A stretch of 64,000 nt of DNA from Infirmifilum lucidum. Its GTDB lineage: Archaea; Thermoproteota; Thermoprotei; Thermofilales; Thermofilaceae. This document shows positions 37,802 to 48,044 of this stretch, piece after piece. The notes beneath the pieces were generated by a model. The model was not told where the DNA came from, made no database searches, and worked only from the letters and a program-made list of their open reading frames with translations. How positions within the stretch are numbered: the first letter of the stretch is position 1; each line of letters starts with the position of its first letter. The stretch covers positions 434,001 through 498,000 of the forward strand of contig NZ_CP062310.1 of NCBI RefSeq assembly GCF_014876775.1. The letters run 5' to 3'. Position numbers and translations under genes: made by a program.

Positions 37802-38383
37802 CTACTCACCCCGCCATATCGACATGAAGTACGATGCATCAGCAGCCGCGATTTCCGGGTTGTCGATGAGGACACTTGCCTCGTGGTTGCGCATCATCGC
37901 CATGTAGCTCCAGTTATGTGAGCCTACTATCACGTACCTCCCGTCTACTATCACCAGCTTGGCGTGAGTCGTCTTAGCCCTAGTGTCGAACCTCACAGAG
38001 ACCCCGTTGTCCAGGAGCCTGCGATAGGTGAGCTCGTTCACGTCAATAGTGTTCTCTAGGACTACCTTCACGTCAACCCCTCTCTTAGCCTTTGATATGA
38101 GGATCTCCACTATTCTCGATATTTCGTCAGTGTCGCTCTTAAACTCGAACATTGCAATGTATATTGACTTGTTAGCCTTTGAGAGAAGATCCAAGAGAGT
38201 GGGGTAGTAGTCTCTATCATTTATTATTTTTACTCTTACTCCGGCATACGTTGCTGGGGCCTCTAGCGGTGCGGGAGCCTGGTACTTGCTCCCGAGGTAG
38301 AGGCCGGCTAGAAACGCTAAACCCGAAAGTAACAGCACCAGTACTAGTATCGAGCCTGTGGACGAGCGACGAGCTCCCGGCAT
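37802..38383 (-). CDS. Membrane-anchored phospholipase D-family nuclease
   Basis: 193 residues. One N-terminal helix (about 11-31) anchors a single-HKD PLD domain; the motif is HAKLVIVDGRYVIVGSHNW near residues 140-158. Single-HKD members such as Nuc act as dimers on DNA or phosphodiesters, here probably outside the cell. A TATA box (TTTATAAA, 38407-38414) lies 27 bases before the ATG, indicating a leaderless start. Confidence 0.82.
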   Translation of the reverse strand: MPGARRSSTGSILVLVLLLSGLAFLAGLYLGSKYQAPAPLEAPATYAGVRVKIINDRDYYPTLLDLLSKANKSIYIAMFEFKSDTDEISRIVEILISKAKRGVDVKVVLENTIDVNELTYRRLLDNGVSVRFDTRAKTTHAKLVIVDGRYVIVGSHNWSYMAMMRNHEASVLIDNPEIAAADASYFMSIWRGE

Positions 38384-39285: not shown

Positions 39286-39295
39286 CATATTTATA
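39286..39295 (+). promoter_or_regulatory. TATA box of the RadA-paralogue/nuclease cassette
   Basis: CATATTTATA centred 27 bases before GTG 39318, a strong leaderless promoter for four overlapping genes running to 41671. Confidence 0.5.
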
Positions 39296-39317: not shown

Positions 39318-39695
39318 GTGGACGAGTTTACCAGGATATTGTTCTGGGTCTGGAAGATAGGAGAGAGCGAGAAGAGCCTGGTAGAGGTTTCGAGGAATTC
39401 TAGTAAGGCTCGGGAGGCTATAGAGCTCCTCCAGAAGTACTCACTGGTAAAAGTAAGGAAGAAAGGTAGAGTCTTCCTGATCTCACTATCGGAGAAAGGG
39501 TTCGGGGTCTACAGGAAGATCAGAGAGATGCGGGAGTTGATCGGGCTAGATGCGCGCCTGGTGCAGCAGGCGGAGAACACAGCAAGCGCCCTCGAGCCCG
39601 TAGCACCAGGAGCGGGGGCTGTGCCGTCCTTCCTAGCGGGTAACCCCTGGCTAGAGGTTCTGGCGAAGAGGGGGCGTGAGAGGCTGGGACTGTGA
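39318..39695 (+). CDS. Winged-helix DNA-binding protein, first gene of the RadA-paralogue cassette
   Basis: 125 residues with a MarR/PadR-like winged helix over residues 1-75 (SLVEVSRNSSKAREAIELL as recognition region, KVRKKGRVFLISLSEKG as wing). A Pro/Ala-rich linker and a C-terminal helix follow. It could regulate the cassette or bind DNA as a structural partner of the downstream recombination proteins. Overlaps the next gene by four bases (GTGA), so translation is coupled. GTG start fixed by the TATA box. Confidence 0.68.
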   Translation: MDEFTRILFWVWKIGESEKSLVEVSRNSSKAREAIELLQKYSLVKVRKKGRVFLISLSEKGFGVYRKIREMRELIGLDARLVQQAENTASALEPVAPGAGAVPSFLAGNPWLEVLAKRGRERLGL

Positions 39696-40240
39696 GCAGG
39701 GTAGTCTTGATAGGTAGGGAGCAGTTCTCGAGAACACACCTCAAGGTGTTCAGGGACGTAGAGATACGCTCGATGTTCGGTGAGCTCGCAGAAGAAGTCC
39801 TAGCTATTACCCGCGAGACCACCGTGCTCTACCTCCCACTCAGCGTCTCCGTCGAGTTTTGTGGTAGGAGCGTTTACCTGCCAGCTGGAGTTAGCCTTGC
39901 GAGCGGAGTATACCTGGACGTGCCTGGGGGCCTTTACGTGCCAGAGTTGCTCGACGAAGAGTTTCTCGAGTTCCTGCTCTTCGACCTCCCGCGTAGCCTC
40001 GATGAAGCCAGGCGTCCCGTGGTCGTAGAGGACATCGACCAGAGGTTTACGAGAGACGTTCGCGAAGGCGTGCTGTACGCACTAGACATCCTTTCGAGGA
40101 TATCTGTAACTTACCGCGTCCCAGTGCTAGTATACGGTGACAGGAGCCTGGAGGGGGCCTGGAGCTTCGCCAGGCGCTTGGCCTGTGGTGACAAGGGTTT
40201 GTGCTCCCTGGATGGCGAGCCGTTCTGCGGTGGGCCTTGA
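39692..40240 (+). CDS. Unknown protein with a RecA-like C-terminal segment
   Basis: 182 residues, no confident family. The segment at about 108-150 (RRPVVVEDIDQRF, then a helix ending RISVTYRVPVLVYG) resembles the Walker B strand, helix and next strand of RadA, compared with the downstream paralogue's LVVIDS ... LYGTVTVITN. No Walker A is visible. It may be an inactive RecA-fold partner comparable in concept to non-catalytic recombination mediators; this is inference from a short match. Cysteines near the end (ACGDKGLC) are notable. Couples to the RadA paralogue through a TGATG overlap. Confidence 0.5.
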   Translation: MSRVVLIGREQFSRTHLKVFRDVEIRSMFGELAEEVLAITRETTVLYLPLSVSVEFCGRSVYLPAGVSLASGVYLDVPGGLYVPELLDEEFLEFLLFDLPRSLDEARRPVVVEDIDQRFTRDVREGVLYALDILSRISVTYRVPVLVYGDRSLEGAWSFARRLACGDKGLCSLDGEPFCGGP

Positions 40241-41187
40241 TGCACGACATCGATGAACTTGCCGGTGTGGAGAACATCGGCAAGGTCACCATCGCCAAGC
40301 TTAAGGCTCTGGGGATCGAGCACGTCGAGGATCTAGTTCTCTTCAACCCCGAGGAGCTCGAGGAGCTGGCTGGAATCGATTTTGAACGTGCACTTAGGAT
40401 CGTTCGTGCAGCCAGGCGCATTGCGGGGTGGGAGACAAAAGCATATACTGGGAGGGAGTACGCCGCACTCCTCCAAAAGAGAGACGCGCTGTCGTCGGGC
40501 GTGGCTTCTATTGATGAACTAATGGGAGGCGGCTTCACGGTCTACGATATCTACGAGTTCGCGGGCGAGTTCGGCACGGGCAAGACACAGCTATGCCACC
40601 AGCTCGCAGTCACGGTTCAGCTCCCCCCGGCTAGGGGCGGTCTCGGGGGTGGAGCAGTCTACGTGGACACGGAGGGAACCTTCAGCCCCGAGAGAATAGA
40701 GGGCATCGGGGAGAGGTTTGGCGTGGAGGATCCTTTGTCGGGAATATACGTCGTAAGGCCTCTTAGCGTCGACGAGCTCGAGGAATTCGTCGTGAGGGGC
40801 CTGCCAAAGGTTCTCAAGTCTGGGGCCCGGCTAGTGGTGATAGACAGCGTCATCGCCCTGTACAGGGCCCAGTTCCGGGGGAGGGAGTGGCTTGCCATGA
40901 GGCAGCAGCGCATCAACTACATGCTCGACTGGCTGAAGAGGCTGTCAAGGCTGTACGGGACTGTGACAGTTATAACAAACCAGGTCGTGAGCGTCCCAAG
41001 CGCGTGGGGCGTGGCGGTAAAACTCCCTGCTGGCGGGAACATTATCGCGCATGCCAGCACGCACCGCTTCCTAATGAAGAGGACTGGTGAGACATTCCTC
41101 GTGGAGGTCTTGGACAGCCCCCGGTTGCCCAGGGGTGCTAGCGCGGAGTTTGCAATAGCTAGGGACGGCCTCCGAGATGCCAGGTAG
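40240..41187 (+). CDS. RadA paralogue lacking the FxxA polymerisation motif
   Basis: 315 residues from ATG 40240, overlapping the previous stop. Helix-hairpin-helix domain at 1-60 (LAGVENIGKVTIAKLKALG), Walker A GEFGTGKT at 109-116, Walker B LVVIDS, then NQV and PAGGNIIAHA near loop L2. It is a full two-domain RadA relative, unlike the single-domain RadB or aRadC types. The linker position that reads FITA in the canonical RadA at 48 kb reads AYTG here (68-71), so standard filament assembly is doubtful. Probably a recombination mediator. It overlaps the nuclease gene by 11 bases. Confidence 0.85.
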   Translation: MHDIDELAGVENIGKVTIAKLKALGIEHVEDLVLFNPEELEELAGIDFERALRIVRAARRIAGWETKAYTGREYAALLQKRDALSSGVASIDELMGGGFTVYDIYEFAGEFGTGKTQLCHQLAVTVQLPPARGGLGGGAVYVDTEGTFSPERIEGIGERFGVEDPLSGIYVVRPLSVDELEEFVVRGLPKVLKSGARLVVIDSVIALYRAQFRGREWLAMRQQRINYMLDWLKRLSRLYGTVTVITNQVVSVPSAWGVAVKLPAGGNIIAHASTHRFLMKRTGETFLVEVLDSPRLPRGASAEFAIARDGLRDAR

Positions 41188-41671
41188 TCTCGCCCTTCTA
41201 CTCCTCGAGAAGAGTATTGAGAGGTTTGAGAGAGCTCGTAGCTCTAAGGAGGCGAAGTACACGGTCACGCAAGTTGCAAAGATACGGGGTAGAGGCAAAG
41301 GCATGGGAACAGAGGCTGGCAGAGAGCTCCACTCGAAGCTCTGGGGAGATCCCGAGCTGATCGCACGAGAGAGGCTTGTCTCAACCCCGCTCCCGCTGGC
41401 GTGGAGGTTCAGGTTCGGGTGGCTCTACGGTGTGGCCGACCAGGTGCTTTTCCGGGAGGGCGTTCCCGTCCGCGTCGCGGAGGTTAAGAGCTACACTTCG
41501 TACCGCGGCTATGAGCGCGCGCAGGCGAGCCTCTATGGCCTGCTGGTCGAGCTTAACTGGGGTGTGAGGCCGCGTGTCGAGCTAAGGGGGGCTCGCATCG
41601 TGGAGGTTAAGGGCTGGGAGGAGATAGCACTGGAGTCACTGGAATTATTCCTGAAGAAAATACATTATTAA
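41177..41671 (+). CDS. RecB/Cas4-family PD-(D/E)xK nuclease, no Fe-S cysteines
   Basis: 164 residues with the ordered RecB-family signature: GRELH (His52), GVAD (Asp88), AEVK (Glu102, Lys104) and QASLY (Gln116, Tyr120). Unlike Cas4 and AddB it contains no cysteine, so no iron-sulfur cluster. It should be a metal-dependent DNA nuclease. No CRISPR or cas genes are near. Translational overlap with the RadA paralogue makes a joint role in DNA end processing likely. Confidence 0.78.
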   Translation: MPGSLALLLLEKSIERFERARSSKEAKYTVTQVAKIRGRGKGMGTEAGRELHSKLWGDPELIARERLVSTPLPLAWRFRFGWLYGVADQVLFREGVPVRVAEVKSYTSYRGYERAQASLYGLLVELNWGVRPRVELRGARIVEVKGWEEIALESLELFLKKIHY

Positions 41672-41718: not shown

Positions 41719-42741
41719 GTGGCGGCTTTGAAGAGAGTCGGTGTGGCTGTAGCAGGCCTCGGCAGGATCGGCAGAGTCCACGCGGAGATTCTCTCCTACA
41801 GAGTTGAGAATGCGAGGCTGGTCGCTGTAATGGACGTCGTAGAGGATCTTGCTAGGTCTACGGCCGAGAAGCTCAAGGTTAAGGCGTACACTGACTACGA
41901 CAAGTTGCTGAGAGACGGGGAAGTCGACGCTGTCTTTGTCACTACTCCTACCTACCTGCACCACGACATGATTGTTAGAGCGCTGGAGGCCGGGAAGCAC
42001 GTTTTCACAGAGAAGCCTATAACCGTAACGGTAGACGAGGCAGTAGACGTAGTGAGGAAGGCCGAGAAGGCTGGGCTTAAACTGATGGTCGGGTACATGA
42101 GGCGGTTCGACGCCGCCTACGAGGAAGCCAGGAGGAGGATTTTGAGCGGCGAGATAGGCAGGCCCGTCGCGTTCCTCAACATCGCGCGCGACCCGGGTGC
42201 TCCGCCGGGCTGGGCCCAAGACCCGAAGCTGAGCGGCGGGATATTCCTGGACATGCTTAGCCACGACTTCGACATGGCCAGGTTCCTGGTAGGTAGCGAG
42301 GTTAGGAAAGTATACGTCTCGGGGGCAGCAGTCCTCTACGACGAGATTAGGGCTAAGGGTGACCTCGACCTAGTCAACGTGAACTTCGAGTTTGAAAACG
42401 GCGTCTACGGCGTCTTGCACGGTAGCAGGAAGAGCGTCTTCGGCTACGATCTGCGAACTGAGGTTTTGGGCACCGAGGGGACAGTTTATGTGGGCAGCCA
42501 CGTGGATCCAAACCTGGCTATTGGCGTGAAGAGTGGAGTCGTATTCAGGGGTGTGCAGTGGTTCTGGGCGAGGTTCTACGACGCCTACGTGCGAGAGGAT
42601 CAAGCGTTCATCGACTCCATACTCAACGACACGCACCCGCCGATCTCGGGGCTAGACGGGCTGAGGGTTGTCGAAATAGCGGAGGCTTGCTGGAAGAGCG
42701 TGCGTGAAGGCAGGCCTGTCGACGTCGAGAGGAGAACTTAG
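41719..42741 (+). CDS. Gfo/Idh/MocA-family oxidoreductase, inositol 2-dehydrogenase-like
   Basis: 340 residues. NAD(P)-binding VAGLGRIGRVHAE near 11-23, the EKP motif (HVFTEKPI) near 95, and a C-terminal alpha/beta substrate domain with SGGIFLDMLSHDFDMARFL near 170-188, where Asp and His form the catalytic pair. Closest in outline to myo-inositol 2-dehydrogenase, but sugar or scyllo-inositol substrates are possible. Archaeal inositol lipids make an inositol role reasonable. Convergent with the Lhr gene, overlapping by four bases. Confidence 0.82.
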   Translation: MAALKRVGVAVAGLGRIGRVHAEILSYRVENARLVAVMDVVEDLARSTAEKLKVKAYTDYDKLLRDGEVDAVFVTTPTYLHHDMIVRALEAGKHVFTEKPITVTVDEAVDVVRKAEKAGLKLMVGYMRRFDAAYEEARRRILSGEIGRPVAFLNIARDPGAPPGWAQDPKLSGGIFLDMLSHDFDMARFLVGSEVRKVYVSGAAVLYDEIRAKGDLDLVNVNFEFENGVYGVLHGSRKSVFGYDLRTEVLGTEGTVYVGSHVDPNLAIGVKSGVVFRGVQWFWARFYDAYVREDQAFIDSILNDTHPPISGLDGLRVVEIAEACWKSVREGRPVDVERRT

Positions 42742-45566
42742 TCCTCCCAGTACCTCCTAGTCCTGGTGTAGTTGGCCTCGGCTAAAAGTATGTTTTTAAC
42801 GAGCGTTTCTTCATCCCGGCTCTTCGAGAGAATACTCTTCGCCGTCGACGGGCCTATCCCGTGACCGGCTAGCGCCAGGAGTGCTGGGTAGCCGTACGAC
42901 ATAAAGAGCGACGCTATCTGCCTTGCTTTCTCAACGAACTTCTCCTCCTCGCGGGTGAGCTTCTCCCCTCTCCTCCATTTCCTGATTATCTTTATGTTCT
43001 CCGCCTCGTAGGGCCTTAGGGCGGCTAAGGCCCTCGACCCGCACTTTGGGCACGAAGCTATGTTCCGGGCGTCCTGCACCCTGAGCTCTGAGCTCCACTC
43101 GCCGCAGTGCATGCAGTAGAGCACTATTCTCGTGCTCTCCAGCCTCTTTAGGACGGCTGTTAGGACAGAGGATATCGGGATGCCCGAGGAGATGACCCCT
43201 GTCCTCACGAATGGCTTCTCGAAGATTAGCTGGGATAGAGGGCTTAGCTCTGCAACTGTGTAGACGTAAACTTTCCTCTTCCCGGCCTCAATAGACCTGG
43301 CGAATTTCTCGACTACTTCTAGGTCGAAGTGCTCGACCAGGCACGAGTTAACCGCCTCCACGTCAACGGGGGTGTCCCTGAGCCTCTTCTTCAGTATGGA
43401 CAAGTAGCCTGGCTCGACTTTACCCCTGCTCCTGTCTATTACGCCCATCCGAGTCGCCACGTGTAGGAGTTCGAGAAGGTATGCGTTGCTCTCGCGCACG
43501 GCCTCTCTCACTCTCTCAAGCGCCCAGGGTATGCCCTTCCTCAAGACCTCCTCTACCATGTTGCCCGAAAGCTCGGAGGGGGCGTAGACAAATACCCTGT
43601 AGGGGTCAGCGTAGTAGCGCGTAGAGAAGCCGTAAAACCCTCTAATTGCAAACGCCAGGAGGAGGGCCAGCAGGTTGTTGCCCCTCGTGCCCAGGTACGT
43701 GTGGCAGACGATAATAGTTTTCCCGCTTTGGCGCTGGACTTCCACGACTACGCTGTTTTCGGTAGGGAGGATCCCCAGGCGCAGTTGTTTCTCCATGATT
43801 CCTCTCAGCTCGGCAGCTATGGAGTCCGGGATTTTGTACTCTCTGAAGAGCTCCTGCTCTCTGCCTCTCGGCAATAGCTCGGAAAGCCTCCTGTAAAAAG
43901 CTCCGACTTCCCTGGCAACCCTCCACTCTACGGGTAGCAACATGCCTGTCCAGATCGGCGGCTCTCCCAATTCTCCCGTGTGCTCAGTTACGTAGGTTTT
44001 GTTCCTCTCAACGTCTACCTCCTCGATCTCCCAGGCTCTCCCGGACAGGATAATCACCTTACCCCTGTCTATCATTGATGCAAATGAGTAGTCTAGGTGC
44101 CCTATTACCCTCCTGGAGGCAAGGTCTTCTACGTCAAAAGAGGGGTTATCGGGGATCATCGAGGCCGAGCCGTAGTAGTAGCTTATCGTCCTCCTCCCCA
44201 TCCTAACCCTATCGCCGTCGAGCCTGACGATGCCGATAGAGTCCATGAACCTCAGTAGTTCGACTAGTGCACCGTAGCTCAGCTCTCTGTAGGGGTAGGC
44301 TCTCGTGACTATTGCGTAGAGCCTGTCTATGGGCACTTCGCGGTACTCGAGTACTAGGCCAGCTACCTGGTGGGCCAGGACGTCCAGCGGGGATTTAAAG
44401 GTGCCTAGAGACTCGAGGTCGCCGCGTACAGCCCTTCTGGCGAGAACGGCCGACTCGACGGCATCCTCTACGCCGAGGGGGATTATGATGCCCTCTGATA
44501 CCTCGCCTAGCTTGTGTCTCGCACGCCCGACCCTCTGTACCAGTTTTATGGCCTGTCGAGGCGAGCCGAACTGCACGACTAGCCTAGCGTACCCTATGTC
44601 TATGCCGAGCTCCAGGCTCGAAGTCGCGACTACCGCCTTTATTTTCCCGCTTTTGAACATGGACTCTGCCTCCTCGCGTTCTTCACGGGATAGGCTGCCG
44701 TGATGGACTCTAACCTCAAGCCCGAAGTCTCTCGAGAGAACCCTCCCAAGCAGTTCCGCCGTGTCTCGGGTGTTCGTGAAGACTATTACGCCCCCCTTGG
44801 CCGCTTCGTCGGCGATTAGCCTAACCTTGGAGTAGAGCTCTGGTGGCACGTTGTCGGGGGTATATCCGCCTGTTTGGGGGATATCTGCAATCGTGATCCT
44901 GTAGGCTTTTCTCTCGCTCCACTCTATGACGGTACCGCTCCGCCCGCCACTAATGAATTCAAGCGCCCTGCTAGGATCCCTGAGCGTTGCAGAAAGAGCC
45001 ACTACTCTGAGGCTCTTTGAGAGGAGTCTAAGCCTCTCTAGGGCAACTGCAAGCTGGACGCCTCTCTTGTCGTCGATGAGCTCGTGGAGCTCGTCGACGA
45101 CAACCCACCGGAGGTTGGGTAGGTGTGTCCGAAGCCTCTTGTCTACAATTAGGAACTGGAGCGTCTCTGGGGTTGTGATAAGGAAGTGCGGTGGGCTCTC
45201 AGCTATCTTCCTGCGCTTTGACTGGGGCGTGTCGCCGTGTCGTATCTCTGCGGAGAACCCTAGCGATACAAACAAGTCTCGCATCCTGAGGTTTATGTCC
45301 CTGTTTAGCGCCCGGAGGGGGGTAATGTATAAGGCATATATTGGTTGCCCTCCCTCTTCCAATAGGCTCTTAAGTATGGGAAGAACAGCAGCCTCTGTTT
45401 TGCCAGACCCGGTGGGTGCTACAATCAGGAGGTTGCTGGTGTAGCTATAGAGCTTGAGGGCCTGTAGCTGTATGTAGTTTAGGCTACTGTACCCCTCTCT
45501 TTCCAGCACCTCTAGTAGAGACCTTGGCAACTTGTCTTGTAGTTCCTGTAGCGTCGCCTCAGCCAC
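42738..45566 (-). CDS. Lhr-type superfamily 2 DNA helicase
   Basis: 942 residues. Q-motif and Walker A APTGSGKT near 50-57, DELHEL box near 159, SAT motif (ALSATLRDP), motif VI QRVGRARHKLGE near 345-356. The Lhr-specific winged-helix and barrel regions follow. The C terminus adds a zinc ribbon (CMHCGE and CPKCGS) and a helix-hairpin-helix (YGYPALLALAGHGIGP). Archaeal Lhr proteins unwind forked DNA and RNA-DNA hybrids in repair. GTG start. Its 3' neighbour is the inositol-type dehydrogenase on the other strand. Confidence 0.9.
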   Translation of the reverse strand: MAEATLQELQDKLPRSLLEVLEREGYSSLNYIQLQALKLYSYTSNLLIVAPTGSGKTEAAVLPILKSLLEEGGQPIYALYITPLRALNRDINLRMRDLFVSLGFSAEIRHGDTPQSKRRKIAESPPHFLITTPETLQFLIVDKRLRTHLPNLRWVVVDELHELIDDKRGVQLAVALERLRLLSKSLRVVALSATLRDPSRALEFISGGRSGTVIEWSERKAYRITIADIPQTGGYTPDNVPPELYSKVRLIADEAAKGGVIVFTNTRDTAELLGRVLSRDFGLEVRVHHGSLSREEREEAESMFKSGKIKAVVATSSLELGIDIGYARLVVQFGSPRQAIKLVQRVGRARHKLGEVSEGIIIPLGVEDAVESAVLARRAVRGDLESLGTFKSPLDVLAHQVAGLVLEYREVPIDRLYAIVTRAYPYRELSYGALVELLRFMDSIGIVRLDGDRVRMGRRTISYYYGSASMIPDNPSFDVEDLASRRVIGHLDYSFASMIDRGKVIILSGRAWEIEEVDVERNKTYVTEHTGELGEPPIWTGMLLPVEWRVAREVGAFYRRLSELLPRGREQELFREYKIPDSIAAELRGIMEKQLRLGILPTENSVVVEVQRQSGKTIIVCHTYLGTRGNNLLALLLAFAIRGFYGFSTRYYADPYRVFVYAPSELSGNMVEEVLRKGIPWALERVREAVRESNAYLLELLHVATRMGVIDRSRGKVEPGYLSILKKRLRDTPVDVEAVNSCLVEHFDLEVVEKFARSIEAGKRKVYVYTVAELSPLSQLIFEKPFVRTGVISSGIPISSVLTAVLKRLESTRIVLYCMHCGEWSSELRVQDARNIASCPKCGSRALAALRPYEAENIKIIRKWRRGEKLTREEEKFVEKARQIASLFMSYGYPALLALAGHGIGPSTAKSILSKSRDEETLVKNILLAEANYTRTRRYWED

Positions 45567-46952: not shown

Positions 46953-48044
46953 TTAGACGTCTGTAACGCCGTCTTCGGATATTGCGAAGGCGGCTTCCTT
47001 CTCAGCGTGCTTGGGGCTGTCGATGATCCTGGCTATCCTCTTCCCCTCTTTAGCCTTGCGGAGCCATATTCTGTACGTGAAGCCGTGGGCCATAATGTTC
47101 CCACCTGCAGGCCTGAGGGGGTTGCCGAAGAAGACGTCTGGAGCCGCCATTACCTGGTTCGTCACGACAACAGCCAGATTGTAGAGGCTTGCGAGCTTGT
47201 GGAGCTGGCTTATATGCCTGTTCAGCTTCTGCTGGCGCGAGGCCAGGTTCTCCCTGCCGGGATACTCTGACCTAAAGTGGTTGATTAGGCTGTCAACTAC
47301 TATTAGTCGAATATTGTTCTTCTCAATGTACTTCTTGGCTTCGTCGACAAGCAACATCTGGTGGTCGCTGTTGTAGGCCCGAGCATATATTATGTTCTCA
47401 AGAGCCTTCTCGGGTTCTAGCCCTCTTGCTCTAGCTATCTGGATTATCCTCTCGGGCCTGAACGTGCCCTCAGTGTCTATGTAAAGCGCCCGTGCACCAA
47501 GACCACCCTTCTCCTTTGGTAGTTGCACGATCACGCTAAGCTGGTGGCATAGCTGTGTCTTCCCGGCGCCGAACTCGCCTATTAGCTCCGTGAGGCTTCC
47601 AACCTCTATCCCGCCTTCGAGCAGGTCGTCAAGGCTTTTAACGCCCGTGCTAATGTACTCGATATTCTTCCTCTTCTCGAATAGCTCTTTCGCTGTGATG
47701 AATTCCTCTCCCCGGCTTACGAGCTTCTGTGCTGCCCTGATTATAGCCATAGCACGCTCCTCCGAGCCGAGTATCAGCGCTAGCTCATGCGCAGACGCGA
47801 ACGCTAGATCCTTAACGGAGTAGTAACCGGCTGCCCGTAGCTTTTGCGCAGTTATCCTACCTACACCCTCAAGGTCTTCTAGGCGTATCTCCTCGCCCTC
47901 GACCTCTTCCGGGAAGGCTTCAGCCGCCTCGTCCTCCTGCAATATACCACGCGCTATCTCGTCTAGCTCACTTGCCTCAGAACTGGCTTCCCGGAGTTCT
48001 ACCTCCTCTTCGGCTTTGCCCTTGCTCTTCTTAGGCATCGCCAC
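46953..48044 (-). CDS. radA: DNA repair and recombination protein RadA
   Basis: The archaeal Rad51 homologue, forming filaments on single-stranded DNA for strand exchange. 363 residues. An acidic N-terminal extension (about 1-50) precedes the helix-hairpin-helix domain ([16 protein letters not shown]). The polymerisation motif FITA is at 115-118 and Walker A GEFGAGKT at 156-163. Walker B RLIVVDS and loop L2 [11 protein letters not shown] follow. The acidic extension is longer than in most RadA proteins. Compare the paralogue at 40240-41187. Transcribed toward S25e after a 177-base gap. Confidence 0.96.

Follow-up and report, generated by a model that had tools for sequence, protein, structure and literature searches.

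Rad51-paralogue recombination mediators, among them Rad55-Rad57, RFS-1/RIP-1, archaeal RadB and SsoRal1 (the examples named in PMC5480776), are RadA-family ATPases without a polymerisation motif of their own, and a second RecA-fold partner is common to them. RadA itself polymerises through the insertion of an invariant Phe (PMC5480776).

A different kind of system is represented by crenactin and its partner arcadin-2, of the arcade cluster. In arcadin-2 a folded N-terminal domain and a disordered linker lead to an extreme C-terminal helix with the core N-x-W-[LVI]-x-[VI]-L. A crystal structure (PDB 5LY3; Izore et al. 2016, PMC5173319) shows the R187-R203 peptide of arcadin-2 bound in crenactin's hydrophobic groove. 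This peptide depolymerises crenactin filaments, while full-length arcadin-2 binds crenactin with a Kd of ~31 nM, with the tryptophan central to the interaction (PMC5173319). The same work draws the comparison with ParR/ParM, where the C-terminus of a DNA-binding adaptor fills the hydrophobic groove of an actin-like protein. Thermoproteales are without FtsZ and ESCRT, and crenactin is thought likely to be their division machinery (PMC7617429); arcadin-4 is probably derived from Rad50 (PMC9389158), an origin that fits a DNA-related role. Our search of the openly accessible literature found no report of crenactin-binding tails beyond arcadin-2, or of a link between crenactin and RadA. Here we analyse an operon of the thermophilic archaeon Infirmifilum lucidum that combines features of both systems, and relatives of one of its genes lie in loci resembling the Ted DNA-import system (PMC9905601).

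A compact operon around a RadA paralogue

Within the window, the stretch of 64,000 nucleotides of I. lucidum DNA that was analysed, four ORFs on the same strand form one operon, encoding a winged-helix protein (WH), G2, RadA2 and a nuclease (NUC); each ORF overlaps the next, by 4, 1 and 11 bases in turn. The window corresponds to G000:C1:434001-498000 in a single-contig genome of 1.63 Mb. The sequence-only reading of this DNA had described these genes, their coordinates and overlaps and the TATA box, all of which are real, and it had correctly placed canonical RadA and Lhr within 8 kb. The features are as follows.

39290-39295 (+): TATA element TTTATA, the operon promoter, ~24 bases 5' of the first start codon (sequence)
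39318-39695 (+): WH protein, 125 aa (AlphaFold model, Foldseek matches, alignments)
39624-39692 (+): WH C-terminal tail PSFLAGNPWLEVLAKRGRERLGL, residues 103-125, a predicted arcadin-2-type crenactin-binding peptide (profile hits, arcadin-2 match; structure 5LY3)
39692-40240 (+): G2, 182 aa, predicted RecA/Rad51 fold lacking a P-loop (no family in Pfam)
40240-41187 (+): RadA2, 315 aa, HhH and Rad51 ATPase core, Walker A and B intact (domain search, alignment)
40432-40452 (+): RadA2 ETKAYTG, where canonical RadA has EFITA; the FxxA polymerisation motif is lost (49-protein RadA-family alignment)
40564-40587 (+): RadA2 Walker A, GEFGTGKT (RadA-family alignment)
41177-41671 (+): NUC, 164 aa, predicted RecB/Cas4-superfamily PD-(D/E)XK nuclease (domain search, alignment)
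42738-45566 (-): Lhr, a neighbour of the cassette
46953-48044 (-): canonical RadA, which has FITA, a neighbour of the cassette

The start codon of WH is GTG, and its ~24-base spacing from the TATA element is that of a leaderless arrangement; TTTATAC stands at about the same distance upstream in the closest relatives. The RadA2 ORF is open from 40201, with the ATG at 40240 as its most likely start. Eleven of 12 homologous operons keep the 4-base WH/G2 overlap and their next junctions mostly lie between -17 and +3, a degree of conservation that exceeds chance. On the other side of the promoter, a membrane-anchored single-domain PLD nuclease (37802-38383, -) adjoins a dTMP kinase; it points away from the cassette, and its synteny holds across the genus.

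RadA2 matches the Rad51 (E=3.5e-59) and HhH (E=1.2e-6) domains, so that it has the HhH and the Walker-bearing core of a canonical RadA/Rad51, and its L2 loop differs from that of canonical RadA. The RadA2 proteins of the class form a single, class-wide clade apart from canonical RadA (100/100 in a tree of 49 proteins), and in I. lucidum this separate RecA-family lineage stands beside the canonical recombinase in the same genome. Canonical RadAs in the alignment carry FITA, FISA or FMTA at the polymerisation motif, where the Phe is absent from every aligned RadA2. Since the invariant Phe mediates RadA polymerisation, we infer that RadA2 should not form a canonical filament. A RadA paralogue lacking a self-polymerisation motif is what the mediator part of the sequence-only reading would lead one to expect. 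Searches of plasmid records matched only haloarchaeal RadA/RadB.

The AlphaFold model of G2 (pLDDT 92.7) best resembles Dmc1, Rad51 and RadA in structure searches, with a best E-value of only ~1e-3 and a TM-score of ~0.6 by query length, and its sequence holds no recognisable P-loop. The model assigns G2 a RecA/Rad51 fold without a P-loop, which bears out its earlier label as a RecA-like unknown. From these features, RadA2 and G2 are likely to constitute a Rad51-paralogue mediator for canonical RadA. The cassette shares the second RecA-fold partner with described mediators, whereas RadA2 keeps its HhH and its operon adds a RecB-type nuclease and a protein with a crenactin-type tail.

NUC was matched weakly by PDDEXK_1 (E=0.016) and Cas4 (E=0.0012), and its catalytic motif positions (H52, D88, E102-x-K104 and Q116-xxx-Y120) are invariant in 17 homologues, which points to a RecB/Cas4-like nuclease whose activity is predicted. 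PADLOC, PHROGs, Pfam and NCBIfam returned no specific family for WH, G2 or NUC, and PDB profile searches by sequence with G2, NUC and arcadin-2 gave nothing significant.

G2 was found in 13 of 61 relatives, all within two families of the order. WH-G2-RadA2 is contiguous in 12 of these 13 genomes; in the remaining one the contig ends inside G2. Conservation of the order extends less well to NUC, which directly follows RadA2 in only eight of the 13 (G000-G006 and G013). In G018 it lies upstream within the same locus and in G016 elsewhere in the genome; in G010 the sole match is partial and on another contig, and homologue search detected no NUC in G012 or G015. NUC is not strictly part of the cassette. 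In I. lucidum the cassette occupies a conserved chromosomal place, shared in synteny with relatives, and a related two-gene unit, RadA2'-NUC, is found at other places in G005, G006 (twice), G014, G017, G019 and G023. In G005, the nuclease genes of the cassette (L036) and of the second RadA2-NUC module (L037) share 239 bases at 99.6% identity; the aligned RadA2 genes of the two modules average 74%, except for their last 130 bases, which reach 98%. This identity pattern identifies gene conversion between the two modules as its apparent source.

The tail of the winged-helix protein and crenactin

The new finding, made from sequence comparison, is an apparent crenactin-binding-type tail at the C-terminus of the winged-helix protein. 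In the AlphaFold model of WH, residues 1-75 form a winged-helix domain, a disordered linker comes next, and the chain ends in a short helix of modest confidence (pLDDT ~62-71). Foldseek matched the fold to Sso10a-2, to ArsR/MarR regulators and to the centromere binder AspA. The C-terminus (PSFLAGNPWLEVLAKRGR) is among the best-conserved parts of the protein.

Tails of this kind recur in relatives, where one recurrent tail protein has an actin gene on one side and a Rad50-like gene on the other. The actin beside it is crenactin (E=1.8e-107 to 4CJ7/5LY3). The tail protein between the actin and Rad50-like genes is therefore arcadin-2. In the genome carrying loci L064 and L065, which we take to be P. 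calidifontis, arcadin-2 has 203 residues and ends in RGGIGENEWVKILRSKR. These last 17 residues are exactly the crystallised R187-R203 peptide. Across different domain architectures the tail keeps an invariant N, P and W within a shared core, N-x-W-[LVI]-x-[VI]-L, and 72 of 73 distinct tails finish 4-12 residues short of the stop; only the first copy in a tandem duplicate departs from this. WH presents the same C-terminal helix after a disordered linker, like arcadin-2. Its homology to a structurally proven crenactin-binding peptide is strong, and from this we would expect, with considerable confidence, that the WH tail binds crenactin. WH differs from arcadin-2 in that its N-terminal domain is a DNA-binding-type winged helix and its gene adjoins a RadA paralogue, not crenactin; binding is predicted for WH. 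Binding of the tail to RadA2 was considered and dropped, given that a single genome has several tail-bearing proteins, including one next to crenactin; ThermoDBP was considered as the identity of the arcadin-2-like proteins and was not supported. In one genome (G004), arcadin-2 carries two tandem crenactin-type tails (L154:1635-2384).

Tail and crenactin go together across the phylum: of 398 genomes, 110 have both, 267 neither, 17 crenactin only and 4 the tail only (Fisher p=8e-74, from counts that are not phylogenetically independent and are inflated by shared ancestry). The crenactin-only genomes are mostly of Pyrobaculum/Thermoproteus type, where the variant NEW was seen, and three of the four tail-only genomes are incomplete members of the source order. 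The genome of the cassette has crenactin itself (G000:C1:861870-863000).

At E<=1, the tail profile (A4) had matches in 49 of 61 relatives; several significant ones in a single genome were common. Besides WH, the tail ends C2H2 zinc-finger proteins, both beside RadA2' (L037, L039, L040) and closing RadA2-SWIM-like operons (L054, L060), and it occurs on other regulator-type domains (sigma-r4-like HTH, AbrB/MazE-like and RHH). Of the 80 tail matches that do not adjoin crenactin, 19 have a RadA-family gene within 2.6 kb where 0.66 would be expected, a count inflated by shared ancestry, with perhaps four or five independent origins of the RadA link. Domains of at least three types carry these RadA-adjacent tails, namely winged-helix, zinc-finger and AbrB-like ones.

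Several further tail proteins were observed. A tail-bearing AbrB-like protein directly follows another RadA paralogue, from the canonical side of the tree, in G027 (L141:114-1569) and G030 (L165:299-1796). The third tail protein of the window genome is a genus-conserved sigma-r4-like HTH protein (L253:15928-16605, C1 ~756.9-757.6 kb). A G004 contig of 31,504 bases, presumably the T. pendens plasmid pTPEN01, encodes a 132-aa protein ending in a crenactin-type tail, LPSFVKGNPWVGIL (L200:8952-9350); its sequence suggests that the plasmid may use host crenactin.

RadA2 relatives in Ted-like and SWIM-like contexts

Members of the RadA2 clade repeatedly sit inside Ted/T4SS-like loci together with TedC, TedA, VirB4-like, VirB11-like and ParA-like genes, and beside SWIM-like proteins; neither this association nor the tail on WH figured in the sequence-only reading. 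In P. calidifontis (L064), genes for an AAA ATPase, a SWIM-like protein, TedC and TedA come after RadA2, with a VirB4-like gene also in the locus. Residues 20-24 of the pilin are AVAQA, agreeing with the TedC cleavage site published in PMC9905601. Locus L224 (G044) holds TedA, TedC, RadA2, a SWIM-like protein and a VirB4-like protein, and L037 (G005) a SWIM-like protein, a VirB4/HerA-like ATPase, RadA2, NUC, the zinc-finger tail protein and VirB11-like, ParA-like and ParB-like genes. In L050 (G018), VirB11-like, ParA-like, SWIM-like, NUC, WH, G2 and RadA2 genes stand in one place, and this resembles an arrangement from which the window cassette could derive. The second P. calidifontis copy, L065, reads RadA2-SNase-SWIM-like (SNase E=2.3e-11), so a nuclease is a recurrent partner of RadA2 though its fold changes.

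The Ted system differs in that RadA2, the SWIM-like protein and the nuclease are not among the Ted-associated genes given in the passages of PMC9905601 consulted, and the window cassette lies apart from the genome's Ted-like locus. That VirB11/ParA/VirB4-like locus, at C1 ~744-752 kb, is far from the cassette and was assigned by its ATPase domains and architecture because TedA and TedC were not recognised there by sequence; the locus survey did not find TedA, TedB or TedC near the window cassette. In Pyrobaculum, no neighbour of the RadA2 loci bore a tail of the pattern used, which means that a link to actin does not hold for every RadA2.

"SWIM-like" here denotes a CxCx(n)CxH pattern together with mutual similarity, and the Pfam SWIM model did not score on these proteins. 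A comparison can be drawn with the Shu complex (SWS1-SWSAP1; Csm2-Psy3): in relatives, RadA2 shares its operon with a protein of the SWIM-like CxCx(n)CxH pattern, and G2 has a predicted RecA fold without a P-loop. Unlike Shu, the window cassette has no SWIM gene, and Pfam SWIM was not detected in the SWIM-like proteins of relatives. SWIM-like-related sequence occurs 31 times in G006 and 14 times in G001, over many contigs and frequently in short pieces, a pattern like that of an amplified or mobile element. Two loci (L061:640-4891 and L049:5053-9238) share an operon that runs from a membrane protein through a degenerate HerA/VirB4-like protein (recognised by eye), an unknown of 317-322 aa and a SWIM-like protein to RadA2, with NUC next in line. 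In the Pyrobaculum-type genome G051, a DprA-like gene, recognised by eye only, lies divergently ~1.2 kb upstream of RadA2 (L063:5095-5787).

A proposed mediator module coupled to crenactin

We infer a complex with mediator and nuclease activity, WH-crenactin binding and a biological role along the following lines. RadA2, as an ATPase that does not self-polymerise, would pair with G2 and assist canonical RadA (46953-48044), its presumed client, on ssDNA, while NUC would trim DNA ends. The N-terminal domain of WH may bind DNA and its C-terminal helix grip crenactin as arcadin-2 does; from these two activities we propose that WH tethers DNA or the repair complex to crenactin, or controls crenactin assembly locally, in the manner of ParR-ParM. 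The analogy has bounds, as WH has a different DNA-binding fold and is linked to recombination genes, and a centromere for it would be hypothetical. Because the RadA2 clade recurs in Ted (T4SS-like) loci, imported or broken DNA is the likely substrate. We give a probability of about 0.55 to this reading, in which a Rad51-paralogue module for mediation and end processing, with a history of ties to DNA exchange, is coupled to crenactin by WH. Whether the I. lucidum cassette is tied to DNA exchange rather than to general repair is evenly balanced. The end-processing and recombinase-loading unit first proposed for these genes keeps its coupled Rad51 paralogue, RecA-fold protein and RecB-type nuclease and its conserved order, and a mediator and end-processing role is plausible.

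The main rival is that WH is a MarR/ArsR-like transcription regulator of the operon or a regulon, whose tail serves as a sensor: free crenactin would bind the tail and change DNA binding, so that the recombination genes follow the state of the actin filaments and DNA repair is not physically coupled to actin. WH is the first gene of its operon and has a regulator-type winged helix, and the other regulator-type domains listed above also bear tails. However, zinc-finger, AbrB-like and winged-helix versions adjoin RadA-family genes far above chance, and the chromatin and centromere binders Sso10a-2 and AspA match the WH fold comparably well; we consider regulation rather unlikely. An ordinary recombination cassette is improbable. 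There, RadA2, G2 and NUC would repair chromosomal breaks, and the tail would just sequester crenactin monomers or dock a drifted partner such as RadA2, as might be supposed from the several tail-profile matches per genome and from the cassette's conserved chromosomal place, distant from the Ted-like locus. The near-perfect co-occurrence of tail and crenactin speaks against it, as does the fact that groove binding on crenactin is the only proven function of the peptide (PMC5173319).

The sequence-only reading had also raised a defence module. Such a module would use a Cas4-like nuclease together with RecA-like ATPases to destroy or acquire foreign DNA. Beyond the weak similarity of NUC to Cas4, RadA2-NUC pairs are present in ParB-bearing, possibly mobile loci. 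Nevertheless, NUC scores 18.7 against a Cas4-model cut-off of 65 and contains zero cysteines, hence none of the four for the Cas4 iron-sulphur cluster; it had no match in phage records, no PADLOC family rose above trivial scores, and the cassette is inherited in chromosomal synteny. The cassette is not a known defence system, and a defence role is highly improbable.

For a mediator module coupled to crenactin, the WH tail suggests, by its sequence, a physical link of DNA repair or DNA exchange to the actin of the cell. More widely, we tentatively propose, at somewhat less than even odds, that crenactin works with DNA in Thermofilales and related archaea, and that tail-bearing adaptors connect recombination, DNA exchange and plasmid DNA to it. 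If true, this would be an archaeal actin-coupled system of DNA repair and segregation, with adaptors in the RadA2 operon, beside RadA paralogues and on a plasmid. The Ted DNA-import machinery would gain candidate recombination partners in RadA2, the nuclease and the SWIM-like protein. Tail-bearing DNA-binding proteins, some of them operonic with Rad51 paralogues, make a different role for crenactin, in DNA repair, exchange or segregation, directly testable.
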